A stretch of DNA of 64,000 bases, from contig CM055113.1 in the NCBI GenBank assembly GCA_029204225.1, positions 9,386,364 to 9,450,363 of the forward strand, given 5' to 3'. Source of the stretch: Diphasiastrum complanatum (taxonomy: Eukaryota > Streptophyta > Lycopodiopsida > Lycopodiales > Lycopodiaceae). Below the pieces are notes generated by a model. The model saw nothing but the letters and a program-made list of their open reading frames with translations, did no database searches and was not told where the DNA came from. Every line of letters begins with the position of its first letter. Positions within the stretch are counted from its first letter, which is position 1. The translations under genes were made by a program, and so were the position numbers. This document shows, piece by piece, positions 1 through 18,286 of this stretch.

Positions 1-364
<364 letters not shown>

Positions 365-365
365 G

Positions 366-383
366 TGGTGCCGTTGCCGGGGA
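366..383 (+). other. Retrotransposon primer-binding site (element A)
   Basis: TGGTGCCGTTGCCGGGGA lies two bases after the LTR end. Elements B and C carry the same 18-mer with one C/T difference each at CpG-like positions. TGGCGCCGTTGCCGGGGA is the primer site I recall for Athila/Tat-type elements, complementary to the 3' end of a tRNA (reported as tRNA-Asp); the tRNA identity is from memory. Confidence 0.85.
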
Positions 384-1916
384 TAGGACTCACTAAGTAG
401 TTTTAGTTGCTTTTGCTTTTTTAGCTTATTTGGAGTGGACTTTGGGTAGACTTAGCTAGTTATTTGTGCTTTCTTGTGCTTGGATTGTTCACAGCTAGCA
501 CTCCAAGGCCCATGCACCACTAGTAGTGCACTGTGACACCTCACTGGACACCTCTGCAGCCTATCTGGGCCACATCATCTAGTTCCCCAATGACTCACTG
601 AAAGATCCATACCAACTCCACCACCATGTGTTTAGGCCTACAACCATTAATTATGACCATGTACACATAAGGGCCCCAATTCCCTTATAGTCACAATTAA
701 CTTACGGATTGATGGTCTACTAGTCTCTAGCGTGGACACGCTATCCAAGACTAGTCATGGGCATGACATTAGGTGTGGAAGGGTAGTGGAGACCCAAAAC
801 AACCTCTAAGAGCTTGGCATCCAACCAAAAACCTTGAAAAACCATAAAAATTGTTCAAATCTATTTTTGAAGAGAAAGAGTGGCCAAAAACCACTCCAAT
901 CTTTAAATTTCAAAATTCCCTTGAAACTAACTTTGCATGACTAGCAGCAGCCCCAGGGTACTGTCCCAGACCTGCATAGAAGCCTGCGAGGGTTACTTTC
1001 CAACAAATTTTCAAAAAAATAGAAAAAAAACCATTAAAAATTCAAAAAACCCTTGAAAAATCAAAGAAAATTCAAATCTTCAAAAGGACCCTTGCAGAGC
1101 CCTCTGAAGTTCCATCTTAGTGAGACGAGACACAAAGAAGGCTGTGAAGGTTCATTTTTAGAGGAAGTGCCCATGCAAAGGTTCCCAAGTGAAAAAAGAC
1201 GAGAAAAGAGTCGTGAACCCTCGTAGACAACAATTCTTTGAGTTCTAGTGGCAGGTAAACTTTGTAGAGAATTTTTAAATTCCATCTCAATGAGACAAGG
1301 ACACAGAAGAGCCTGTGAGAGTTAGTTTGATCCCAGTGAGCCAAAAAGTGGATTTGAGTGCATAAAAATCAGCAAAATCAGAAGATCCAGAGAATCCTTG
1401 CATAACTATCCTTTGCAGACCAAAATGTCATTTTACATCAGTGATGAAGTTTGCGAGAGTTAGTACAAGATAGTGGTGAAGATCAGAGCAAAAAGGTGTC
1501 CTTGGACCACCGTAGACAATGAAATTTTCATTTCCTGTGAGAGTTAACCTTTGCAGACTTTTCCAGAGTCAGATCCATACCAGATACAACTCCAATAAAG
1601 CCTGCGAGAGTTACTTCTCGTTAACTTTGAGAAAATCAAGATTTTTCTTACTGAAAAATAGTGAAAGAACCCTCGCACAACCAACCCTCGCATGATTAAC
1701 CTTCACAGATAGGATCAATAGTTAGATCTGCACCAAATCTAGCTACTGTGAAAATCTCAAGCCAATCCAAGCAAGGATCAAAAAGCTAACAAGGAAAAAC
1801 CATTGTAAGAGGCCTAAAACCACACTATTGGCCAACCAAACTGATCAGATTCCTTAAAATCCAAATTGAATTCTACTGAATCAGGAAGATCCAACATCCT
1901 TGAACTTTACCGCCAA
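384..1916 (+). other. Untranslated leader of element A with dispersed GCGAGRGTT words
   Basis: No coding potential was recognised between the primer site and the gag start. The leader shares blocks with the leaders of elements B (27366-28651) and C (45591-46877). It contains roughly ten degenerate copies of a word like TGCGAGAGTTAAC, in both orientations, for example near 985, 1310, 1450, 1540, 1600 and 1670-1700. A 267-base foreign block (502-768) interrupts it. Confidence 0.7.
502..768 (-). mobile_element. 267-base fragment of a copia-type LTR inside the leader
   Basis: This block is about 90% identical by eye to 18531-18796 and is absent from the leaders of elements B and C, which run from the GCTAGC word directly to the AGGTGTG word. 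It ends at GCATGACA, exactly where the second copy also loses similarity. In the second copy the block is the U3 end of a putative minus-strand copia LTR that finishes at a tRNA-iMet primer site, so I read 502-768 as a truncated LTR. It could instead be an independent short repeat. Confidence 0.6.
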
Positions 1917-3470
1917 ATGAATCTGAGATCCGGATGATCAGTAGCCAGAAAAATAGCGAATCAAGCACCAGATCTTCCTAGAGTTGCGGCCACGCAAATT
2001 GAGGTAGAATCATAACTAGCACCAATGGATCCTATGAGTCAACCCGTACCTGTCACACCCTTGCAAGGAGTCCGGAGAGCACCTCACATGGAAATATCAA
2101 AATATGATGGGTCATCGGATCCTATCAAATTCATCTAGATCTATGAGCAAGCGTACGAAATTTATGGTGATCGAACACCAACAGAAAAACTGATGTTGTT
2201 CCTCATGTCTCTGGTAGCTGTAGCACAAGATTGGTTTTTGAACTTATCAGAAGAAGAGAAAACCACTTGGGAAGGGGCTAAAATGGCTCTCATCACGCAC
2301 TTAAAGCCAAGGAAGTTCTTGGAAGATCCATTTTTCTTGCTGAGCAGGGTCAAAATGGGCAAAACAGAAAGGGTCAGGGACTACATAGAACGGGTCAAGC
2401 ATTTGAGATCTGAATGCAATGTATCCCTAGCTCTCGATCATGAGGTCATTATGTGTTCCTCGTGAGGTTACCACAAAGTATCAAAAGAGAACCTAAAAGA
2501 CAGGAGCAATATGCTACATTTTAGGAAGCAATGGAAGATGCCATCAGGGTAGAAGATGAGGGTTCAAATGATGAAACATATCCGACCACCCATAATTCAA
2601 ATTCCTCGGTAGCATCATCATCCAATGCATCTAATATATCAACAAAGCTATTGATGGAACAAATGACGAAGTTACACAAGCAGCAGATGGAACAACTTAC
2701 GACGCAGTTTGATCATAAATTGAAAGTCTTGCAGGGAGCTGTAGCACCAGCTCCAAATCTACCAGAACAGAACTAGCTACAATATCCCTAATGAGAAAAT
2801 TTATGGTGTTCAATTTGTACCCAGAACCATACAGCGAATGAGTGTCCAGTTTTGAAGCAAAATCTCAAACTAACACAGAGGTTTTGCCACCTATGCAATG
2901 CATCGTCGCACGAAACAACATTTTGCTTATTCGACCCTCGGATCTTACAACAAAAGAAGAATCAATATCAGACCTCTTATCCTTACCATCAGGGAGCACC
3001 GAATGTGGCACCGTGGTATGGCGCGCCAATTAACCAACAGTGCATGGCCTTACCTACACCACCAGGGCAAGCTAACAACCAAGTGGCTCATGTAAATCTG
3101 GCCACAACAGAACAAGGACCACCACCCCAACCTAAGCAGCAGCAGTGGTACGGTCCAGAAGAGACATTTGTCTTCGGCAATCAACAAATACTATGCGACC
3201 TATGCTACATAGCCTCAACGTCAAGGAGGTAGGATCAATGGCTGCTATGGATGCGGTGAAGGCCAGCAAATTGTAGAATGTCCTTATAAGAGACAATATA
3301 CGGCTTTTTGTTGAGAATGCGGATATGGGAATTGCTACAAGAATTTTTCAATTAAACCTAGAATGACTGCACCCTTGAATCTAGTCTTAGTAAAACCGAT
3401 AGCAGTTCCAAGAAGGATGCCACAGGAAAAACAAAACCCCCAGGTTCCAATGCTATAAGTTACACCAGCA
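1917..3470 (+). pseudogene. gag: gag of element A (broken)
   Basis: The ATG at 1917 begins MNLRSG, the same start as gag of element C (MNLRSGRS). The capsid-like part follows, with MEISKYDGSSDP near 2090 and AQDWFLNLSEEEK near 2225. Next comes an acidic and coiled segment ending in a heptad-like Met/Gln-rich stretch (2640-2720), then two zinc-knuckle-like Cys/His clusters (around 2815-2935), a Pro/Gln-rich linker and two more clusters (3240-3355). There are in-frame stops soon after the start (SG-stop-SV) and near 2462, and one knuckle Cys is lost at 3314. The product would have been the retrotransposon nucleocapsid precursor; this copy cannot make it. Confidence 0.85.
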
Positions 3471-6400
3471 CATAAACAAAAGGGAGTGGCTCCATCAACA
3501 ACATCATCAATATCAATGGCTGATGATCAATCCAAAATAGCAGGACCATATCCTAATGTGAGGGAGGAAGGAAGGCAATATCAAAAGATATGCCATTGGA
3601 TATAGGATGCACAAGCAGAGGAAGTAGCACAAGCAAAGGAAAAACCAGCAGCACCTCTACCATCAGAAGTACCAGCACCACCTGTCAACTCCCCATTGCG
3701 ATCAGATCAAAATAATTGTTTGCACCATCACGAAATACCATTTCACATGAGTGAGCATGGGGTCCCACAATTGGGAGTGCTTGCAAGTTTGCTAGCTAGT
3801 CGCATGGACATATCCTTTGGAGAACTCATGCGGATGGTGCCACAAGCTAAAAGCAGTCTGACAAATTGGCTCAATTCAGAGTCAGAACCAACCAGAAGGA
3901 GCCCTTATATTGTGCAGGCTACGAATGAACCAACAACGTCCTCCATATTGGGGTAGCATGGAAACGTGAGGAGCACAACATCACCCTGCCAATCAAGCAT
4001 AAAATATTTGAGGACAAGGTAGCAATGGTAGATGGAGGATCATGTGTAAATTTGATCTCCGCTACCTTGTATCAGAAATGGGGTTTGCAAAGATTGAGAC
4101 CAGCAAAATTTGCCATCAAATTAGCAAATCAATCTTGTGTAAAACCAAAAGGTGTAGTTGACGACATCCCGATAAAAATAGCGAGAATGCAGTTCGTAAT
4201 CACCTTCGTGGTGATGGACATACCAGAGTGCCCTTCTGCCTACCGTGTTTTACTAGGAAGACCTTGGTTGAGGATTGCACAAGTGGTTCACAACTAGGGA
4301 ACCGACAAACTTACCTTTGAAAACAAGTAGCAAGCTGTAAATGTTGACCAACCACACGGGCGGTGAACCCAATAACACCAAAAGCTGATGTAGATTGTCC
4401 ACCACTGATCACACTATTGATCACCCAAGGCAAGCCAAGGTAGGTCATTACGACTCTGAAACAGATATTGTGAGATGGACAGACGCATTGATGACAATTG
4501 ACTGTATGGCTGGGCATGCTTGTCAACCAGATTCAGATCCGAAATCTAGCACATCTTCACCCAAGTGCTATACCTTGGACACACCAATTACTTTCGGGAC
4601 GAATATGATCAATGTAACATGGATGTCTACGGAAACTATTGAGGACCCTATGGACGATGATCTAGTCCCTTGGAAACATGCTTTTAGCTACAACAAGGAG
4701 GACTGAGTTGATTGATGACCTACAACATATGGACCCATATCACTATGGAATGAGAAAAGTACCAGCTCAGCCACCTCAAAAATCGGCCATGGCGAAAGTC
4801 TCCAAAATAGATCCACCCAAGGCACCTGTAAATAAGAAAAATCAGCTGAAACAACAATACAGCTAGGTGATCCATTGGAGTAATCTACCAGAAGAAGCAA
4901 AAGCCACGGTGGATATTGATATTTGTAATTGTGAAGCGAATATCAATCTGGTTTCCAAGAAAGATAACAAAGACATGCCCAACTATGTTGATACAAAAAG
5001 AAAAAAGAAAGTGTTGGACTCCTTGAAATCAATCCGATTGGAGCCAGAGGCAGCGTCATCATCTTCAAAGATGACCGAAATTCCAAAGATCACAAGTCGG
5101 GTTAGGATCAACATATTGAAAGAGGAATCTCGTCGAACGCCCGTTCATGAGATGCCAGAAACCCTCAAAAATTATACCTTGGACAACGTGATAATCATGA
5201 TGTTGCAAAATCAGGAACCAGCGGAACAAGTTTTCGAAGGACTTGCACGTACACAACTTATGAGTCTTATGAATCTAGCTGAGCCAGGTGAAGAAGAGAA
5301 AATTGTATATGTGGGAGAACAGCTGACACCCACCCAATTCAACAGGCTATACACATTATTGGTGGAATACAAAGATTGCTTCGCATGGAATTACAAAGGT
5401 ATACCACCAACCGTAGTCCAACAGACCATACCCTTGGTGGATGGAACAGTCCCCAAGGTGAGCCGCTATTATCGCTACAATCCTAACTATACGGAGTTGA
5501 TCAAGAAAGAGTTGCAAAAGTTACTTGATGCCGATTTCATTTATGAAATCGAGCACACAGAATGGGTATCACCGATAGTCATAGTACCCAAGAAGAATGA
5601 CAAAATGCGAGTCTTTGTGAACCTGAAAGCGTTAAATGTAGTCACAAAGAAAGATCATTTTTCCTAAAGTGTTCTGGATAGAGTAGTAGGAGTGAAAGCC
5701 TACAGTTTTATGGACGGTTTCAGCAGCTACAATTAGGTGAAAATAGCGCACGATCAGCATAAGACAACATTTTCCACTGAATGGGAAACCTATGCCTACA
5801 AGGTGATGCTATTTCGACTTTGCAATGCCCCAAGTATCTTTCAACGGATTATGCAAGCGGCATTCAAAGAATATTTGCAAAATTTTTTGGAGATCTTCCT
5901 GGATGATCTGTGCGTGCACAGGCCTAACTCTGAGCACTTATCCAACTTGGAGAAGGTGTTAATGAAGTGTTGCAAATATCAGATCTCCTTGAACCCAGAA
6001 AAGTGTTAATTTTGGGTGACGCATGGCCTCATACTAGGCCATATTGTATCACGACACAGAATCACCACTAATCTATCAAAGATTTGGATCATTGTCAATC
6101 TACCACCTCCAGGGACGATTCGCAGAGTCTATGTGATTATGGGTCAAGCTAACTTCTACCAGATTTTCATTCTAGATTTTGCAGAGTTAGCACAACCAAT
6201 CTACAAGCTCACAACTGAACCACATTGGACGGAGGAGGCCCTACAGGCTTTCTAGAAGCTTAAATATGCATTGGTCTCAGCGCCAATATTATGCCCACCT
6301 AATTGGTCCATAGAGTTTCATGTGCATACCGACACATCAAAGTATGCAGTGGGAGCATACAAAAAGGATTTCCCAATCTGATTTGCTAGCCAACAGCTCA

Positions 6401-7976
6401 GTGATTCAGAGATAAACTATTCGACCACCGAGCAGGAGGCACTGGCTATGATTTACGCGGTTAAGAAATTTTGACATTATTTGATAGCCACCCACTTTGC
6501 CTTTTATACGGACCATCAACCCTTGCTTTATCTTGTTAATAAAACCTGCAACACAGGGAGAATTACTCGTTGGTTACTGTTGTTAAAGTTTGATTTTTGG
6601 ATCGTCGTGTGCAAGGGAATGTAGCACTATATGGCAAACCATGTGTCGCGAATCAAGGGGAAGGAGACAACAACCCTACCTAATGATGAGCTACCTGACG
6701 TTGCCTTGTTTTACATTGATGTTAATGGGCCGCTGACATTGTTGAGTATCTTATGCAGGGCCAACCAGACAAATCCTTACCCAAGGTAGAACAGCGAAAG
6801 TTGATTCTAAAAGCTAGACCCTATCAGTTGATTGTCGGCCAATTATATCGAAGAGGATCAGATGGAATCCTTCGAAGATGTATTCTTCCACACGAGGCCA
6901 CCCAGATTATTTCAATTTTGCATGAAGGCATGGGTGGTGGTCATTTCACATCCGACATTACAGTTCGCAAGATCTGGCAATCAGGATGCTGGTGGCCAAT
7001 AAGTCATAGGGACGTGGATGAATACTCAAAGAAATGCAATGTGTTCCAGAGAGCTAGAAGACCAACAAGGTTGAACTATGATCTTCTGAATCCAATCCTA
7101 GCTCAGGCATCGTTTGAAAAGTGAGGATTGGACTATATCGGTCCAATCCATCCTTGCTGCAAGAAGTTCACAAGCCCGATATATTATCATGTCTACGGGT
7201 TATCTCACCAAGTGGGTAGAAGCCAAGGCAGTGCAAACAATTGATGCTCGAGCAACGACCAAGTTCCTGTATGAAAATATCATTGTGTGCTTCGGATGCC
7301 CGATGGAGATAGTCAGCAACTGTGGAAGCCATTTTGTCAATGAGACCATTAAAGTCCTATTGGATGAACTCTTCGTGATCCATCAATTCAGCACACCTTA
7401 TTATCCTTGTGGTAATGGGTAGGCAAAATCACCCAACAAGATCCCATGTAGCGTTATCACGAAGACAGTTGAAGCTAGCAGATCTAATTGGGAGCACAAG
7501 TTACATGCTGCACTATGGGCATTCATAACAACATACAAGGGAGGCACTGATCAAACACCCTTTCGGCTGGTTTATGGTCAAGATGCAGTAGAGCCAATAG
7601 AGTTTTTGGTGCCGTCATTAAGAGTTGTTGTGACACATCGCCTAGATGAATCCAAACCTCTACAACTACGCTATGAAGCCTTACATAAACTTTGCGAGAC
7701 GCGCATCTTGGTAGTACATGCATTAGCGGCCAAGAAATCCCAACGCAAGGCATGGCACGATCGCTGGTTACACAAGAAGGATCTTCGATCTGGAGACTTA
7801 GTCCTCATGTATAAAACCAAGGCGATCAAGAGAAATTTGAAGTTCACAGATGAAGGCCCATATCGTGTTAAGGAAATCCTAAGCCATGGCGTGGTGAACC
7901 TTGAACAACTTGATGGGACGCCATTCGCTACACCCATCAATGATAGCCGACTCCATGAGTACTGGCCACCGCAGTA
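3471..7976 (+). pseudogene. pol: pol of element A: protease, RT, RNase H, integrase (broken)
   Basis: Order of domains: a spacer rich in Ala/Pro; an aspartic-protease-like segment at 4015-4296 with active-site word VDGGSCVNLIS and the LLGRPWLR block; a roughly 250-residue linker without known motif; reverse transcriptase at about 5500-6270 with VSPIVIVPKK and the catalytic FLDD at 5893-5908; RNase H about 6310-6700; integrase zinc region about 6890-7060; catalytic core about 7130-7430; and a C-terminal part ending HEYWPPQ at 7976. Damage includes stops at 4297, 5665, 6007, 7122 and 7420, the zinc-binding CxxC changed to CNVF, and the integrase glutamate changed to lysine. No chromodomain follows. 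The element is inactive. Confidence 0.9.
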
Positions 7977-8850
7977 AGACAGATCTAGCTAGGTGATGAC
8001 TATCTACACATACATGGATCAGATCAAGCCCTATCGGATCTAGTCAGATCGAGCCCTATCGGACTAGATCTGGCCATCAGCAAGATTCAGCAAGATCAGG
8101 CAACATCTGGGCAGTTTAGACAAGATTCGACATGATTCAAGTAGGATTTAGATCCAGATGAGATCAAAAGATTAGCAGATTATCATCAGATACTACTTAG
8201 CCTTAAAAAATACAGATCTAGAGCACAGATCTCAAAAAAAAATACCAAAAATAGGAGTGAATATCATTTAAATTGATGGATCAGCAACCAAATATCCATA
8301 AGAATTCTTGTAGGATTCTCCATAGTCAGATCTGACTTGGATGCAAGTGTATACCAGCCTGCAAGAGTTATGGATCGAAGAATCTCAAGATATCACCAAA
8401 AATCACTAAAAAAGAGCACTTTTTCCATGATTTTTTGAGATCCCTTGGGAACTAACCCTCAAAGCCTTGTCACAGTCACTAAATCTGACTCAAATACATC
8501 CATAAAAATCTCTGCAAGAGTTATTGATGGAAAAATCATTAAATTTGAGTGTATGCCGAGGGTTCAAAGAGTCAAAATCTTTGGAACCTTTGTAGAGCAT
8601 CAAGATATTAGAACTAACCTTTGCAAAAACCATTTTTGGACTCAGGGCAGTGAAATTAACCTGTTTGCATAGTCAAATCTTGAAAATCAGATAGAAAAGT
8701 AGTGCGAGAGTTCACTTTTTGAGAGAGTTCAACCCTCGCAGAGCCTGCTAAACCCATAGTCAGATCTTGAAAATCAGATTTATAGAAAGGTGGTGCGAGA
8801 GTCTAGCCCTCCCCCCACACGACAATGCACTAACCCTCAACCACTAACCC
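7977..8850 (+). other. 3' untranslated region of element A, GATC-rich then GCGAGRGTT-rich
   Basis: Directly after the pol stop, 7980-8240 is packed with GATC and AGATC words. From 8340 to 8830 there are again degenerate TGCGAGAGTT/AACCCTCGCA words. The same order is found on the minus strand after pol of element C (39571 down to about 38820). No coding signal is seen. Confidence 0.65.
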
Positions 8851-8852
8851 TC

Positions 8853-8913
8853 ATGCGAAGCTGAATATGTCGCAGCTTTGAAGATGGCGAATGAGGTATT
8901 GTGGTTACAGATG
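8853..8913 (+). pseudogene. Ty1/copia RNase H scrap
   Basis: One frame reads CEAEYVAALKMANEVLWLQ, the conserved start of the copia RNase H region (family pattern TEAEYMA..A..E..WL). Only about 20 codons remain. It sits at the junction between element A and the unknown gene relic that follows, and may mark an insertion boundary. Confidence 0.75.
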
Positions 8914-10743
8914 TCATATTCTTCCACTCAGAAATACTCATCTCAGTTGGTATGAGTTTTAATATGTGAGTGGTGGCAACAACCTTTTTTTTGGATTTCG
9001 AGCCTCCTTGAACTGGTTGGCCCTTTATTTCAAAATTTTTCCATTTGTCAAAAAAAATTTCTACAAGAGCCCACACCTGGAAAAATAACATTATGAAAAC
9101 AAAATTATATTTTAAATTTTTCGAAATTTCATTTATTAATGTTAAAAACTTTTAATCCAAACATTGCATGCTAAGCATAGTAAAACAATAACTTAAATTA
9201 AAAACTTTTAAAACAAACATTCTATGCTTAGCATAATAAAGTAATTACTTGGCCACTACGATATGCAAGCTCATAAAAACTATCATATTTAATAAGGCTC
9301 TACGTCGGATTCTTAGAATCAAATGGTAGTGCTTTAAGCTCCAATTGGTTAAAATCTCCAGCTTTGGAAACTCTGACAAATTCTTTGTGAAAAAATCTGA
9401 TCCTCTAGATGACCGTCATTTTCATCTTGTAGTCTTGGTCAATGTTATGGTCCCAGACAAGAAGTTTACCTTCTTCCATTGTCAACCTAGCAAAAGCAAT
9501 GGCACTAATAGTTCGGAAAGAAGCTACATGAGAGTACTCCTGGGACAATTGCTTTCTGGCTTGTAAACTATGAATGCGTCCCAAAACAAAAAAAAATGAT
9601 AAGAATCTAAAGAAGAAAAATCAAATTTGGGAATAGATTTACATTCATCCGGATCTACCAAAACAACAAAAGGTGTCACAATTGCTTGCATATGATCTTT
9701 AAATTTAGTTTTTAAATTATGTGCATGTGTGTCGTTAGGCTCTCGAACCTCCATTGGTCGATCTCATGTGGCTGGGTCAATGGGAGGTCGATCACACTGG
9801 TCTATATCCAAAATTGATGTAGTTTATGTAATTTTTTTTGTTTTATGAATTTGATCTCTAATTTTAGATATCTCAGATGAATCCTTCAATGGTTGGATAG
9901 TGGCTCTAGGCAAAACTAAAGTGGCCTCTTCTAATTTTTTTCTACTTTCTTCAAAAGGAACTACTTTTGGTCGCTTGGCCATGGATTTGTTTCTGGACCT
10001 TGTTTTTTCAGTTGCGGATTCAATATGTGTAACAACCTGAGATCTCTTTTTTTTGGGAAAGAGGGCTGATTCGGAGGGTGTAGACTTACCAATAGCATCT
10101 GTGTGGGATGAAACAGTGGAAGAAGCTATATTGCCACATGCCACTGCCACTATCTTTGTACTACGAGAAGAAAAGACTAGATTCTTTCCCTCAGCAATAG
10201 CACAGAGCACGTTTGTTAAACATTGTTTGAGGCTCTACATGAAAGAAAACAAAAGGATAATGTTAGAGAACTTCGAGTATTCATAAAGTAATCTATGCTC
10301 AACATAGATCGGATTTATTATAATACCAGATAATGTAAAACCTAATTCATTGCAAATAATATAATTTATTCCTTTCAATGTGTTCGTACCAATGTCACAA
10401 GGGCTTTGTCAAAATCCATTTTAACGGCATCGTGTTGGCAAAGTCGAATCTTAAACATCCCCTCATCCAAAATGAATATCGAATGACTTTTGTCAAGTTC
10501 TTTCACAAGAACATTGACCAAGCTCTCTTGCTCCACATCGTCATCGGGCTGCTGATCAGCAAGGACTCTACCTTGCACTTGAAATGGAGCTTCACCTCTT
10601 CCTCTCTTCTCAGCAATATGGATAAATAGTTCATTCATTTTACTGTTATTTACACTTATTGTAAAATAAAACATGTATTTCTTTTTGTCCTTCAGAGGAA
10701 CATCTTGAGCCTGGCCTGATATCCGAAAGGAAATCTTTGACAT
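8914..10743 (-). pseudogene. Unrecognised spliced gene relic, possible transposon accessory gene
   Basis: I do not recognise the protein. Exon 1 runs from the ATG at 10743 (MSKISFRISG) to 10390, where CATTG precedes GTACG. A pyrimidine-rich stretch ending ATGTAG, followed by exon 2 at 10234, gives an in-phase join. Exon 2 reads in one frame to about 9524 with only two internal stops, near 9824 and 9755 (the latter TGA probably from CGA). It has a basic Lys/Arg-rich middle (PKKKRSQ, a candidate nuclear signal) followed by the word FVVLVDPDECKSIPKF. After a frameshift near 9570 coding resumes (FARLTMEEGKLLVWDHN, about 9500-9440). A last exon may start at 9079 after TTTTTCCAG (VWALVEIFFDKWKNFEIKG). 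The gene points away from the palindrome array at 10945-11452 and is divergent from the transposase-like relic. Confidence 0.55.
9142..9235. repeat. Two direct repeats ending in the ATGCTNAGCAT palindrome
   Basis: A 38-base unit (TTAAAAACTTTTAA..CAAACATT..ATGCTNAGCATA) occurs at 9142-9179 and 9198-9235. Each copy ends in the same palindrome that forms the array at 10957-11501, which ties this spot to that array. Confidence 0.8.
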
Positions 10744-10944
10744 TTTTAATTTTTCAAAAATTTCGCTCTAAGTCTGCAAAATACAGCTATTATTGGCAAT
10801 TTATTAGAATTTTAACAAAGAAATCTTTTAAAATTTGAGTATGAATGACAAAACTTTACCCAAAATTTTGATTAAAAAGTATAATTTCTATTTGGATTTC
10901 TATTTTTTTTTAACATTTTTAAGTCCAAGTCAAAAAAAAAAAAA

Positions 10945-11452
10945 TCCTATTTTCTTTGCTCAGCATAGAAGTTTTTTTTATTTTGCAACTATTGCCTATG
11001 CTCAGCGTAGAAGCCTCTCTTCCTCGCTCCCAAGTCTTATGTTGTAACACCTCTATGCTCAGCATAAGCTATTCTCTTAATTTTTCTGGAGTTCTATGCT
11101 GAGCATAGCGTGCTATCTCACTCCACGCAAATATGTTATGCTGAGCATAGGATCTTCTCTGTCGCTCGCCCACGATCTATGGTCAGCATAGCATGCGGGC
11201 AAGCGAAAGATGAGTTCCTATGCTTAGCATAACATAACCGCGTGGAGTGAGAAACCACGTTATGCTCAGCGTAGAACTAGGGAGAAATTAAGAGAATATC
11301 TTAGGCTGAGCATAATATAAGCACTTTAACATTGAAGAGGTGTTATGCTCAGCATAAGACATGGGAGCGAGGAACGAAGGTTTCTATGTTGAGCATAGCC
11401 AATAGTTGCAAAATAAAACAATTTTCGATGCTCAACATAGAATTTAAAAGAA
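10945..11452. repeat. ~500 bp imperfect inverted repeat built of 41-42 bp phased palindromes
   Basis: Left arm 10945-11173 and right arm 11195-11452 are imperfect reverse complements, with a symmetry centre near 11184. Within and just beyond the arms the self-complementary word TATGCTNAGCATA (allowing a few changes) is centred at 10962, 11003, 11059, 11101, 11143, 11184, 11225, 11267, 11308, 11349, 11391, 11433 and 11496. Successive spacings are 41, 56, 42, 42, 41, 41, 42, 41, 41, 42, 42 and 63 bases. A decayed copy near 11043 and a small deletion explain the 56. Single outlying copies lie at 9173, 9229 and 10299. The arms separate two divergent genes, so it could be a bidirectional regulatory or transposase-binding region (inference). 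Confidence 0.92.
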
Positions 11453-12088
11453 ATTAAACATTTTTTTAAAGAATATGGCGGCACAATACTATGCTGAGCA
11501 TAAAGAAAAAAAAATTTAAAGTTTAAAAAATTACAAATATTACCTGGACAAGAAGTGGATTGTTGATAGCTATGCGCGAGATTATAGAAGGTTATCAAAT
11601 GAATGATTCTATCACTCTGATGACAACCTTGAACGCAAATTCGCAAATGAGGTGCCATGTCTTACTCTTGGGCTCTTTAAGTAAAAAAAAAATTGACCTT
11701 CAAACTTTAATGGGCCCCCATTTTACTTCGCGACCAACTTTTTTTTTCACGACCAACTTGTTCGACGACCAACTACTCGAACGAACCCGTGTCAAGTATA
11801 TCAACCCTAACCCTACGACTAGAAGGAAGACCTAATCCTAACCTTTTAACATAAGAGCAATCTTTTGCAGTTGGAAATTATCTTTGTTATTGTTGATTTT
11901 ATGTTAAATGCGCTCTTTGCAAATTTCAGTGTGTAGTTCTATTGATGTTGGCATAGTCTATTTAACTTTTTCTATGACTAGCATAACATAATGTAAAATT
12001 TTTGTTTGTTGTGTTATTTTTACTTTTATATTTTTATTTTTGTTTATGCTTGTCATAGGACTAGAGTCAAAAATTTTAAATTTTTGCA

Positions 12089-14883
12089 ATGGCAAGTAGT
12101 TCTTCTTCTTTTATTTCTATAGTTGTGACTCAGTAAGTAGCCACATCTGAGTCATCCTCCTCTGATATTCCTAATGAAAGTTACTATTATGAAGTCACTC
12201 CTTCAGGTTCTCATCCTAATACCCTTTGTGTTTCTCCGTCAACATCATTTGAAATTTTTCATTGAACTACTTTTCAAGAAATGACACATTTGACACAACT
12301 TGTTACAAATTTGGATTCTTCGTCTTCAGATTCAGATGTTAGAGAAACAACATTGCAAGATCGTTTTGACGAATTAGAAGAGTTAGTCAGTGATGATTCA
12401 CAGGATTCAATTCACTCAGTCACGGATTCAAGTAAAACTACAGATCCCCGTCAATCAATTCATGTTCAACATGCAAGTTTTTCACGTATTTGAAGGAGGT
12501 CTACTTCTCAAATCCAGAATCCGGTCAAATCCAAAAGAGCTATATTTGTTGGGAATCTTTATTCTTCTGACACTGTTGAACTAGCAGAGGCAAATCAACA
12601 ACAACCTGATGTTCAGGTAGATATTCCCACACCTTCTGAACCTGATCAATTTACAAATATAATTTCAAAAGAAAGAAAAGATATAAGAGAGACTTGAAAT
12701 CTTCACCTATTTTGATAAAACGTAAAAAACAATTGATTACAATAGAGGAGATTCGAAAGATATGATGCATTATTTGTTGTTCATCCTGTTGCTTATAGAA
12801 ATTAAACAACAAAGAGATCGAGAAGTTGAGATCCGATTTTTTTTGTGAAGTAAAGATGAAAAAAATTACTATTTTGTGCCACATTGAGACCCGACAAAAA
12901 CTCGTATGCATATGTTTTAAATGCAACAGAGGCTTTTCGAAAAGCCTACAAAGTTGTTCATGCAATGGGAAATTCACGCTTTTAAAGAATGCACACACGA
13001 CTTCAAAAAGATCCAACATTGCGAGGATCACTGCAGGGTAGAACTATGTCTCTGGATGCTTTGAATGCTATGACTTGGCTAAAGCATTTTGTGGATGTGC
13101 ATGGAGAAAAATGACCAAATTCATTGATAAGTTTACAAAATTGGAGATATTTTTTATGTACAAGGAGTTTGCTAAGACAAAAAAAATGTTGCCTATTTAA
13201 GTTACTCGTATTTCCTTAGGATTTGGAAGAGAGACTTTGGTTTGGTGAAGAATCCTTAAAAAATATCGAATGACAGTTTGTTTGACATGCGAGTTGTTAA
13301 AATCTGCCAAACAACTAGCAAAGACCAATGATGAGAAAGGTAAAAATTAATTAACTTTCAGTACTTTAAAAATTTTATTTTTCTGTTAATTTTTTGGTTT
13401 TCAAATTATTAATGTTATGATATTATCATAATTTTATTGAATATTTTAATTGTTACATTTTGTACTGGATGCTGTAAAAACGCTTCAAATACACAGAGAT
13501 CAACAAACAATGGAAAGACAAAAAATAACGAAACATAAAAAAAAATGCCTAAAATTTTCACAAAAATATCTGGGCCTTGTCATCGATGGCATGGATCAGA
13601 AGAAAATGATGTTACCTCATTTCGTTAGACTGCCAAAAAATTTGAACGAGGCAGATTTTATTCAGGTTCATCTCGTTGAAGCACTTGTGTTTAATGGCAC
13701 ATTGAAGTCGAAAGTATTTTTTAATTATCCCAATGCTCGAAACGATCCAAATTTGACCATCACCATTGTGCAAAAGATAATTTGCAAATTTGGTGATAAT
13801 CTTCCAGAAATACTGTATTTGCAATTGGACAACACACTAGGGAAAATAAAACTCAAACTGTACTAGCTTGTCCATGTTAATAAAGAAAAAAAAAATTCAA
13901 AAAAATAAAAACAGGATTTTTGTTGATCAAATTGATCAGATGTTTAGTCATTTTTCCAAAAGACTAAGATGCAAGAAGGCAATTTTTTTACCAGTGCTTC
14001 AGAGCATTGTTGAAGAATCATACGTGCCAAAGCCAAATATTAAGGCATCCAATGAAACAAGTCGTTGTGTTGCTACCATTAATGATATTAGCTTTCAACA
14101 TCAGTTCAAAATCAAATGTAATAAAACTGGCATCACATTGCTGTGGGGCAAACAATTTTCAAGTTTAGTTTCATGGTTACCTGTTGAAGGAATACGGTTT
14201 TTGTTCGATATACAATCTGGTCAAATCAAGCTTGCTGCATCATCTCCCTTGAAGTCCATGCTAGAAGAACAAAAAACGCACAGAGAGCATCATGAGGTTG
14301 ACCCATTTGCCTCATTAATTTTTTTGGATTCAAGTATTCAAGCAGCTTATCAATTTTTTGATGAGTTTGATCAACATTGGTGGATGGACTTTTTCGAGGA
14401 ACCAAAAATTAGTTTGTTCAATCTTGAACACGCATCAACAACTGAAGAATTTCAATGGCCTCATAAATTAGGAACTTCAACTACCATTGTCACGAACCTT
14501 CAAATCTACCTTGAGATAATGATTTCTTGGAGCTTGTGCAAGGCGAGGAACGTGAAATTTATTTGGGCTCAAGGAAGAATAGGCAAAGTGTAAAAGTTGC
14601 AAAAATGAAATGGTGTGGTGATTTGAATGAAATCCAAATTGGAAGCCTTGTTGCACTTCTAGCTTCAGAAAACAATGAAGGACATCCATTTTGGATTGCC
14701 AAAGTACTTGGTTTCATTCAAAACAACAATCAGACAAAAGTATTATGTGTCCATTGGTTGCGCACCACTTCAACAAATGTTTTTTTGGGAAGGTACGATC
14801 TTGAAATGTCGCAAGTAGATCCAAAGGGCAAGAGAAAACGATTGCCAAAGAACCAACCGAGGATTGATGATTTGAATTTATAA
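12089..14883 (+). pseudogene. DUF7869-like, transposase-like gene relic
   Basis: The ATG at 12089 (MASSSSSF) opens a Ser/Asp-rich N-terminal part that stays in one frame to about 12698 despite four stops. A degraded middle keeps words such as AFRKAYKVVHAMG and MTWLKHFVDVHGEK (12930-13112). The core at 13450-13866 has VIDGMDQKKMMLPHF and LPEILYLQLDN, and 13930-13960 keeps DQIDQMFSHFSKRL. From memory these match the order DGMDQ, QLDN..RENK and GHTH..IDQ in plant and animal proteins annotated as DUF7869, an RNase-H-fold, transposase-like domain. The C-terminal part (14600-14800) has GHPFWIAKVLGF and VLCVHWLR, resembling the small BAH/chromo-like domain of these proteins. Frameshifts near 13860 and 14590 and many stops make it non-functional. 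Confidence 0.7.
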
Positions 14884-15119
14884 GATGTAGATGTTTTGGC
14901 TTTTAATTTTGAGTTAACAATGACCAATCATCTACGAAAGTCAACCGTCATCGTCTGTACATCTCTTCCATCGAACTAGATGCTTGGTAACTACACGATT
15001 TCACAATCATTTAGTTCTTGTATCCAAGATCTTTCCGGGTTCAAGCAGAGACACACCCGATGATTCATCCAACAGGTCCAATCGATCTCCAGATCTAAGA
15101 TGCTCTCCTTCACGTAGAC

Positions 15120-15830
15120 TCTTTCATGTTTGGATATTCGGACGGTGCAATTTATATGCACATACCAGACAAATTAAGAAAGAAACTCGATGAAAAGATA
15201 GAACAAGATTACGTTCGTCATATTATTGAGTCTACATACCCGAAATTGGCAGAATAAAAGTTGTTAGAGATGTCAAATTCGATGAGTCAAAGTACGTAGC
15301 TGACAGTGACTTAGTGAGTTATGAAATTCTCAAAAATTATTGTGAGTTACCAACGACAGAAGTAAAACAAGCAGATGATGAATGAGAGATTCAGTGGGAG
15401 TTCAAGATCGAGTACTTGATAGATTTGAATCACCAGTTCGAATTCTAGCAGATCATGTCAAACCCAAAAATGTGAATCGAATTCAAAACCTGTACAAACT
15501 GTGAGAAGATTTGATAGACAAAAAAAACCACCAGTAAGGTCTGATTAGGATGTTTCAACCAATATGGCCATCGAATTTTGTGGCTTCACAAACGAACTTC
15601 AAATATTTGAGAAAGCTATTGATGGACCAGATAAAGATCATTGGATTCAAGCAATGGAGGTCGAAATGTCATCCATGTATAAGAACAATGTATGGACACT
15701 TGCACCTATACCTGATGGAAGAAAACCAGTTAAATGCAAGTGGATCTACACACAAAGATCTGAACAAATCAACCTTAAAGATCAATCCCCCACTTGGAAG
15801 TCTCTCGATGATCTTTTCAGACTTGCATAA
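15120..15830 (+). pseudogene. Ty1/copia integrase-to-RT fragment
   Basis: Fragments in shifting frames read GYSDGAIYMHIPDK, VRDVKFDESKYVADSD and, in one 88-codon frame from 15564, DHWIQAMEVEMSSM, NNVWTLAPIPDGRKPV and KCKWIYTQ. The last words are the start of the copia reverse transcriptase. Similarity stops at about 15800-15830. The flanks have no matching LTR that I could see. Confidence 0.85.
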
Positions 15831-17439
15831 TGTCGGTCCCCATCCTGGAGACTCTAGACATTCTCACGTGCTATCCGTAGCATTTCCTGCATATCATGTA
15901 GGAAAACTGCTATTCTCTGAACTTTGAACGCCTGAGTCTCTACCGCAATGGGTGATATAGGTTAAAAACTATATGTAAGCACGCACAGGGCTATAACCGG
16001 TATCCAAATGCTTACTATAACTCAATCTCCATCAAGGATAACTTCCTCTCCGAGGAGATTGTTAAAAAGTTATGAATACATATCTTAACTGATCTTCTGA
16101 TCACCCAAGTATTCCTTTCTTTTAAACAATAAAGTATAACTAGAATCTGAACTATGATTTGTCAATCATAATTTATCAGATTCTCATCCTATACTCAATA
16201 AAAGAAGGCAACTACCAATGATTAGAAGAACTTTAAGTTCAAAGTCATCTCTAGTTTAGCAAATACGGCCACCAAAAGTGACCCGTGAACTTTGAATCGT
16301 GAATGTTCATAATGTCACTTTGGTAATCCGCAAAGCCAAAAAAGACACTCTATAACTTCTTGGTCTATACCCGAATAAACATAGTCGATTTGGTAAGGTG
16401 ATCAGTCGTACCAAAGTTCCACTAACCTGTTTATTCATCCGGGGTATGAATACTATTCTCTCCTGTGGATTAGGTATTTCCTAAAATCTGAGTTATGATG
16501 CACCAATCCCAACTCTCCAGATTTTCGAGACCATAAAAGTGTATTACAATTCTTAAAAGACACATGAGCTGTTCACAAAGTCCTTTCCATCTGGAAAGTT
16601 TTGGACTTTTACAACTCACACATGGTGCCGATATAAGGATTGTAATATAAAAAAACGCCCTTACTTTAAACATGGCACAAAGTGTCATTCCAAAGCAAGC
16701 TTAAGTAGCTTTGGCCAACGATTTATCCAGTCATGAACAACTTCAGGGCTTTCAATCGCCGGAATAAATTTCTGGTTGTTAGCCCAAGTTGTAAATCACA
16801 ATGGCTAATTGTTGAATAGATTTTGCATTAAGTTTTTTTTTTTTTTTCCAGTTTATTGCCTAAATGAAATTCCCACACACAATGGTCAAAACTTTGCAAC
16901 CATGTGTTTAATATTTTAAAGGGTCAACACAGTCGAGTGATGCCGAGCGAATTTTCATTTGCCACCCCTTACAAGAATTTCATTTCCACCATTTGCAAAA
17001 AAATCGAAAAATTTTACGTTCGGTTGAACTCATTACCGGTATAATTTTCTAATAGAGCAATGTCCAAAAAAGACGTAGTTTTTTTTAATGGACAATACCG
17101 TCCGTGTTTATAGAATGTATACCAATGATTATGCAAAATGGATCTGTGCAACAAATTTGGAAAAAAAAACCACTACACTCATCGAAATCCAATTCACATG
17201 AATTTTAAAGCCATTGATATTTCACAAGTGCCTTAACTGCATTCCATAAAAAACATAGTCTAAAATGACTATATATAGCCCATGGAATATCTAAAAGAAT
17301 GAAAAACAAAAAACCTCACCAGGCCCCTACCGGCCCTGGCCCTCCTCCCCTTTACCCCTACCAACCAACATGGATACAAACTTTAGGTTTAATAATTGTA
17401 AACTTTAAGCTCACAGGGACACCTACATCCCCCTCTCTT
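15831..17439. other. Unassigned AT-rich DNA
   Basis: No protein or RNA gene recognised; only short, unconvincing ORFs. A poly-T run lies near 16830. A TATA-like ACTATATATAGCC at 17268-17280 is followed by a pyrimidine/C-rich stretch (17310-17440) that could be a dead promoter. Confidence 0.5.
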
Positions 17440-17635
17440 CCTTTCAACTATTCTCCCCTCCTCGGGCACCTTCCCATGGCCTGATCGCGCGATACACGGG
17501 ATTCCAAAAACTCCCGAACAGAGAGCTACCAGAGTATCCGCCTTTCAACTATTCTCCCCTGGCACCTTCCCACGGCCTGATCGCGCGATACACGGGAATC
17601 CAAAACTCCCGAACAGAGAGCTACCAGGGTATCCG
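17440..17635. repeat. Tandem duplication of a ~98 bp unit
   Basis: 17440-17540 and 17541-17635 are direct copies, starting CCTTTCAACTATTCTCCCCT and ending in GTATCCG. Both contain CTGATCGCGCGATACACGGG and differ by small indels. The second copy runs straight into a GC then GA microsatellite. Confidence 0.92.
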
Positions 17636-17641
17636 CGCGCG

Positions 17642-17711
<70 letters not shown>
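17634..17711. repeat. (GC)n followed by (GA)n microsatellite
   Basis: About 24 bases of alternating GC (17634-17657), then about 55 bases of GA. Alternating GC of this length is uncommon in an AT-rich plant genome and can adopt non-B structure. Confidence 0.95.
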
Positions 17712-17713
<2 letters not shown>

Positions 17714-18286
17714 TGAGCGCCCATCCATGTTTTGCATTTGCAGGTATCAGGGTTTGGAAGAGGGCGTATTTCCAGTGGCTCCTAGCTTTTTGTTTTTCAC
17801 ATTTCTTTATCAACAGTTCTTTAGCTTTTATCACGCAGAAAGTAAAAAACACTACCCATCTGCTGTTCTTTGCAGATTATCACTGCCTTTGCAATGATTT
17901 ACAGCTAGCTTTACATGTATTACTTGTTTCCAGCAAAAGCAATGGTTTTAATACAAGATTTTGCAGGGTTTTGCTTCACTGTGCATGAAAAACAACAGTT
18001 ACGCTGCCAAAAATTTCCAGAAACCCTTGTTTTTGCAGGCATTAACAACTACTTTCCAAAATACTCATTTAATCTGGACCCAACCATCCTCAAGAATAGC
18101 TTTACAGCACTTAACACTTCAAATAAGGAAATCCACGGGAAGAATAATCCGCAGTTTCACCACTTCATTGCATACTCCATTGAATTTTCGAAAAAGTGTC
18201 GAGATTCCATATCACACAACGGAAAAATTCTCACAATTCGAGATTTCTTCATGAACACAAATCAAAGGCAAAACGGGCTTAGAATT
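17712..18286. other. Unassigned stretch beside a copia primer site
   Basis: Overlapping plus-strand ORFs exist but show no family features, and the longest runs into the antisense of a primer-binding site. It may be the degraded leader/gag of the minus-strand copia element whose LTR is at 18301-18796. No recognisable gag motif is present. Confidence 0.4.

Follow-up and report, generated by a model that had tools for sequence, protein, structure and literature searches.

Thirteen copies of a short palindromic word lie between two divergent genes in the window, the whole 64,000-nucleotide stretch of DNA analyzed here (C22:9386364-9450363 in a 1.745 Gb assembly). Comparison of sequences across copies leads us to favor, with modest confidence, the reading that this array is the control region of a two-gene DNA transposon, in which the words would be sites for a dimeric protein, most likely an accessory protein that the element encodes and that we regard as the putative binder.

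The word array and its flanking genes

The word TATGCTNAGCATA occurs thirteen times with 0-2 mismatches at 10955-11502 (six exact copies, six with one mismatch, and one with two), at positions 10955-10967, 10997-11009, 11054-11066, 11095-11107, 11137-11149, 11178-11190, 11219-11231, 11261-11273, 11302-11314, 11344-11356, 11385-11397, 11427-11439, and 11490-11502. All thirteen words described in the initial annotation were recovered with their centers displaced by at most one base. The measured centers (10961, 11003, 11060, 11101, 11143, 11184, 11225, 11267, 11308, 11350, 11391, 11433, and 11496) are separated in order by 42, 57, 41, 42, 41, 41, 42, 41, 42, 41, 42, and 63 bp, ten of these twelve intervals being 41 or 42 bp, as had been proposed. 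Across the whole window, 19 matches were found at up to two mismatches versus 2.98 ± 1.81 in shuffled sequence, and none of 100 shuffles reached 19. Outside the array, two words at 9167-9179 and 9223-9235 lie just past the region of the fourth exon in the minus-strand gene, and a single word at 10294-10306 lies in the presumed first intron of that gene. As a palindrome, the word extends over 15 bp, with flanks specific to the subfamily around a conserved core, YTATGCTNAGCATAR. The view that this is not an ordinary tandem satellite was borne out: Tandem Repeats Finder, run over 8000-17900, returned no array with a 41-42 period, direct similarity of the window spacers to one another is low, and the gene context is kept, so that window-type arrays do not have the form of a head-to-tail satellite without fixed gene context.

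The array sits between the first exon (E1) of a minus-strand gene and a plus-strand gene carrying DUF7869. E1 (10375-10743, minus strand) is open, with its ATG 208 bp from the large palindrome described below. On the same strand are an E2 region (9824-10270) with an NLS-like PKKKRS motif, E3 (9524-9754) and E4 (9252-9548) regions, and a further exon piece (8915-9091); the introns of this gene are presumed from the exon matches, and homology to four other copies stops at 8915, a left truncation. The plus-strand gene comprises a degenerate N-terminal part (12122-12843), the DUF7869 (PF25273) core (13450-14593) in two broken frames with domain pieces at 13636-13857 and 13928-14158, and a C-terminal part (14177-14955) at the end of which protein homology stops. 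The right end of the element was not found within the window, and both ends of this copy are lost. Retrotransposon-like reading frames, identified by eye, flank the element at 4867-7977 and 14941-15927 and probably truncate it; the frame at 4867-5667 gave no Pfam match over the cut-off. Adjoining dinucleotide repeats, CG (12 copies) and GA (27 copies), are present at 17634-17710.

The two DUF7869 pieces in the window score 42.9 and 34.5 bits against Pfam and the L050 copy scores 167 bits, with a cut-off of 26 bits. DUF7869 was the sole family over the Pfam cut-off in the scanned pieces; a MULE-type transposase domain was not found, and PF02992, the CACTA transposase domain, was absent from the Pfam matches of these pieces. 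Structure modeling tentatively suggests a transposase/integrase-like, possibly RNase H-like, fold for the DUF7869 product. In a Foldseek search with the protein model, weak matches to the C-terminal part include BAH domains (DNMT1, EBS, and polybromo), and a chromatin-reading tail on this protein is possible. By sequence, DUF7869 gave three PDB matches at E values of 0.17-0.31, all to unrelated enzymes. Among the 57 relatives of DUF7869 found, three are labeled with a species, in the fern genus Adiantum or the liverwort genus Riccia, so a land-plant host is likely. No paper in the literature searched names DUF7869. For the minus-strand accessory protein, no Pfam family was found at the curated cut-off, E4 had no PDB match by sequence, protein searches with E1 and E4 returned no relatives at E ≤ 0.001, and a single-sequence structure model of E1 (pLDDT 42) was left unused. 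Substitutions in E1 were compared among five copies, leaving out L010, which has stops in frame. In nine of ten comparisons, they amounted to 0.43-0.89 at synonymous and 0.16-0.31 at non-synonymous sites, and between L008 and L050 to 0.19 and 0.09. As judged from these rates, E1 is under purifying selection; its synonymous sites are saturated between L050 and either the window or L012.

Gene association, spacing, and conservation of the words

The initial annotation had tied the phased words to two divergent genes and had asked whether other loci with such words flank the same pair, and the tie is supported by the copies compared here. Among ten arrays chosen by their words (the window and nine on C1), E1 adjoins seven (window, L006, L007, L008, L010, L012/L013, and L016). 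The other three are L005 (4862-5350) and L009 (4348-5125), whose arrays are rich in 28-bp spacings and in whose surroundings, over about 5 kb, no element gene was recognized, and L014, which has a distant exon piece only. L009 appears, by eye, to be built from a larger tandem unit. L050 was chosen for both genes with words between them and is not counted among these ten. When the best 150 of 2954 DUF7869 candidates were paired with the best 150 of 1175 E1 candidates, ten pairs lay within 15 kb, where 0.39 were expected by chance, and all ten were divergent, with gaps of 1.7-2.9 kb. A listed word pair lies 234-624 bp upstream of E1 in 6/6 matches on C1 below 32.92 Mb (6 of the 150 E1 matches; base counts used words at ≤1 mismatch); for the four E1 matches between 32.92 and 54.7 Mb, an incomplete test found at least one with a 51-81 bp word pair among the matches listed. 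The words are mostly non-coding, as 150 of 155 words in 16 stretches lie outside protein-matching DNA and five overlap protein-matching stretches, with 25 of the 155 in three stretches without any protein match. All five copies in which the two exons are retained (window, L008, L010, L012, and L050) carry a word with 0-2 mismatches in the presumed intron 1. A second, smaller word cluster was seen at or near a presumed intron of the minus-strand gene at L011:1165-1346, L017:4906-5042, and 1729-1865 of the L050 reverse complement.

Genome-wide, the exact word occurs in 6330 copies, about 175 being expected from window composition, while control words gave 13 (the word reversed), 31 (another palindrome), and 204 (that palindrome reversed). 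Word pairs 20-50 bp apart number 1550 and those 51-81 bp apart number 826, versus zero for the reversed control in both ranges. Among the 50 matches listed for the shorter range, 40 have a distance of 40-42 bp, and among the 50 listed for the longer range, 26 fall at 52-57 bp and 12 at 79-81 bp. A preferred distance between words is supported by these counts, and related arrays also space their words 28 bp and 53-56 bp apart. The earlier proposal that all sites face one side of the helix stands only within the 41-bp class, in which 41-42 bp corresponds to four turns, and falls as a general rule with the 28-bp and 53-56-bp arrays. The 59 of 119 spacings that fall outside 40-43 bp (words with ≤2 mismatches; spacings >100 bp dropped) fit a 10.45-bp phase no better than expected by chance (an equal or higher score in 392 of 2000 random sets), and helical phasing as the sole rule was rejected for this reason. 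A 13.8-bp lattice was also rejected, since it fits the peaks at 28, 41.5, 55, and 83 bp but 58-72 bp is nearly empty (2 of 50 among the matches listed).

The words are better conserved than the DNA between them. Between window-type and L050-type arrays, words are 82-91% identical, in columns picked by word match, which somewhat inflates identity, whereas spacers are 35-40% identical and without detectable similarity. This is consistent with the earlier suggestion of protein sites, for which such conservation across diverged copies is expected. Words in the window arms are 85-90% identical to those in the L050 arms, in an arm and spacer comparison that left out the L014 arms. Unusually fast spacer evolution was considered and is unsupported, since spacers differ by 28-30% between the window and L012/L013 and E1 synonymous sites by 43%. 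The 6330 exact words and 1550 close pairs form a natural series in which the putative site and its spacing were kept while the intervening DNA drifted beyond recognition, and in which site, spacing, and symmetry are separable for testing.

The element would then be a two-gene DNA transposon with a plus-strand DUF7869 transposase-like gene, a divergent minus-strand accessory gene, and the array at its center. A symmetric word that recurs at a fixed spacing upstream of both genes is best accounted for by a dimeric protein loading many sites, and each word, with its conserved core, would be the site for such a symmetric DNA-binding protein. Since the gene for the element's accessory protein goes along with the array, that protein is the leading candidate. 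Regularly spaced dimers would occupy many sites, both in intron 1 and between the regions where the two genes start, and could control how active the two genes are, either as an activator or anti-silencer or as an autoregulator. The main rival to the accessory protein is a host protein: the element would have captured a transcription factor or chromatin protein of the host that recognizes the words, and the accessory gene would do something else, a reading that we judge to be unlikely but a serious alternative. It would account for a core word that is constant across subfamilies while E1 diverges (62-83% identical to that of the window in the other 149 scored matches and 36-41% in L006) and for the arrays without recognized genes at L005 and L009. 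In this constancy the core word differs from the VANC targets, which change fast (PMC5735166). Word pairs just upstream of E1 in all six testable cases, and the lack of such an excess for two other palindromes, make the link to the element clear, although a host binder is still compatible with both.

Mirror symmetry and element ends

The whole array forms one quasi-palindrome (10952-11442), a feature that the initial annotation missed, with outermost arms bounded by words and a center near the word at 11178-11190. The inner arms (11054-11181 and 11187-11314) are 82% identical and the outer arms (10952-11044 and 11350-11442) 83% identical, and folding of 10920-11530 gives -184 kcal/mol versus -65 ± 4 in 20 shuffles. 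Spacers in the window pair in mirror order (0-10, 1-9, 2-7, and 3-6, with 4-5 barely above shuffles), left spacer 1 (44 bp) facing spacers 8 and 9 plus the word separating them; spacers 8 and 11 match no other spacer better than shuffles do. The claim that the spacers do not repeat along one strand is right, but mirror-image copies do recur on the opposite strand. Because the two halves are mirror copies, the twelve intervals amount to about six independent ones, and the regular spacing counts about once per arm.

Mirror order was tested between different spacers in ten arrays, L009 not being among them, and is clean in four (window, L010, L013, and L050). L014 has three mirrored pairs and one out of order, L007 and L016 have one mirrored spacer pair each, and L005 and L006 show no clear mirror order, the direct similarity of spacers in L005 being as strong as the inverted. 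No two different spacers mirror each other in L008, yet a 96-bp palindrome is present there. With clean order in 4/10 arrays and partial or no order in the others, symmetry can disappear while the words persist. Inverted repeats cover the words in 9/9 multi-word C1 arrays, with very different length and quality, and the palindrome is centered on a word in the window and L010 and on a spacer in L013 and L050. Arm-to-arm spacer identity is 83% in the window, 80% in L010, 99% in L013 (where the palindrome covers 436 columns at 97% identity), and 76% in L050. The L013 arms are 99% alike while its spacers are 70-74% identical to those of the window and L010, indicating that the arms became alike after the lineages had split. 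The window and L010 arms, by contrast, are closer to their counterparts (about 90%) than to one another (80-84%), which argues against recent copying there. In the favored reading, the palindrome is a second layer, with the arms apparently re-made alike in at least one lineage by conversion, template switching, or new inverted duplication. A bolder and rather doubtful extension is a self-renewing "palindrome of palindromes", in which a dimer site recurs at a fixed distance, the block is occasionally re-symmetrized by arm-to-arm copying, the divergent genes share the platform, and the spacers can drift, for instance so as to escape silencing RNAs. If true, this would be an anti-silencing or autoregulatory system with an origin separate from VANC/VANDAL. 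The arrays also offer a usable system for how long palindromes get renewed.

That the hairpin itself is the functional form, either as transcribed dsRNA leading to siRNA silencing or self-limitation or as a DNA cruciform, is improbable. The folding energy, the long L013 palindrome, and the inverted repeats in every multi-word C1 array are in line with it, but the absence of mirrored spacer pairs in L008 (despite its palindrome), the single pairs in L007 and L016, and the equal direct and inverted similarity in L005 are not. The words are, moreover, alike across lineages with unalignable spacers, a likeness that a hairpin would not require.

Both ends were seen in three copies (L050, L007, and L010/L011), all of which lack words in roughly the first 0.8 kb from the left end and the last 2 kb before the right end. 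The L050 element occupies 11-8555 of the reverse complement, and its words (≤2 mismatches) span 1729-5297, which leaves 1.7 kb free of words at the left end and 3.3 kb at the right. The insertion site of this copy is a long GA microsatellite (ends 11 and 8555, reverse complement). Ends in other copies read AACATG[AG]T[AG]A on the left and GTCAT[CT]GT[AG]TT on the right. The notion that the words are end-recognition sites of the transposase does not survive this distribution, and their presence in intron 1 and mid-element and absence near the ends fit a regulatory role better. Sites for synapsis and cutting, like the TNPA sites of CACTA, are accordingly quite improbable, even though CACTA subterminal regions carry repeated stem-loop-forming motifs bound by an element protein (PMC2613891). 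Against this, the words lie mid-element in L050, and L007 and L010/L011 agree. Least probable of all is a functionless by-product, in which duplication spread a motif array and template switching at short palindromes alone made it symmetric: quasi-palindromes are mutation-prone, which counts for this reading, as do the palindrome centers that vary by lineage, the larger tandem form seen by eye in L009, and the unclean symmetry of 6/10 arrays, but it sits poorly with words kept against unalignable spacers and saturated synonymous sites, with the gene context, and with the intron-1 word in 5/5 copies.

Comparison with known systems

The word itself was not found in the literature under four spellings, no paper with GHTHD was among the matches listed, and no such architecture appeared in the titles and abstract openings of the palindrome and divergent-promoter literature. 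Bacterial REP/BIME sequences (PMC2817692) are similar in being regularly spaced short palindromes in high copy and different in being linked to tyrosine transposases, with no divergent DUF7869 gene pair.

Defining features of both MULE/VANDAL and CACTA elements are missing here, and we therefore claim membership in neither. CACTA elements (En/Spm, Tgmt*) are alike in having reiterated direct and inverted motifs that form stem-loops and an element-encoded DNA-binding protein, which here is putative (PMC2613891). The CACTA repeats lie just inside the ends (PMC2613891), whereas the array here is central and the termini and gene family differ; copies with ends do not have CACTA-starting termini, and motif repeats near both ends were not found.

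The likeness to VANDAL21/VANC21 of Arabidopsis lies in an element-specific, dense, short motif that is non-coding and found in accessory-gene introns and upstream of an element gene (PMC5735166 and PMC10398659), VANC21 motif arrays being described in introns and upstream regions (PMC5735166). The words here likewise lie in non-coding DNA, including accessory-gene introns as presumed from exon matches. The VANC21 motif, YAGTATTAY, is non-palindromic, is tandemly repeated with all copies in the same orientation, and has diverged quickly from one family to the next (PMC5735166, PMC10398659). Unlike it, the 15-bp word here is palindromic and keeps its core, and its copies mostly lie 40-42 bp apart within a larger palindrome; in place of one-orientation tandem motifs there are palindromic words and, in the window, mirror-ordered spacers. 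The transposase-like gene also differs, being DUF7869. The array links DUF7869 to an accessory gene and a regulatory architecture and may be a second example of a transposon that brings sequence-specific control of silencing with it. By analogy, VANC21 of VANDAL elements is the closest working precedent, with TNPA of CACTA next (PMC5735166, PMC10398659, PMC2613891).
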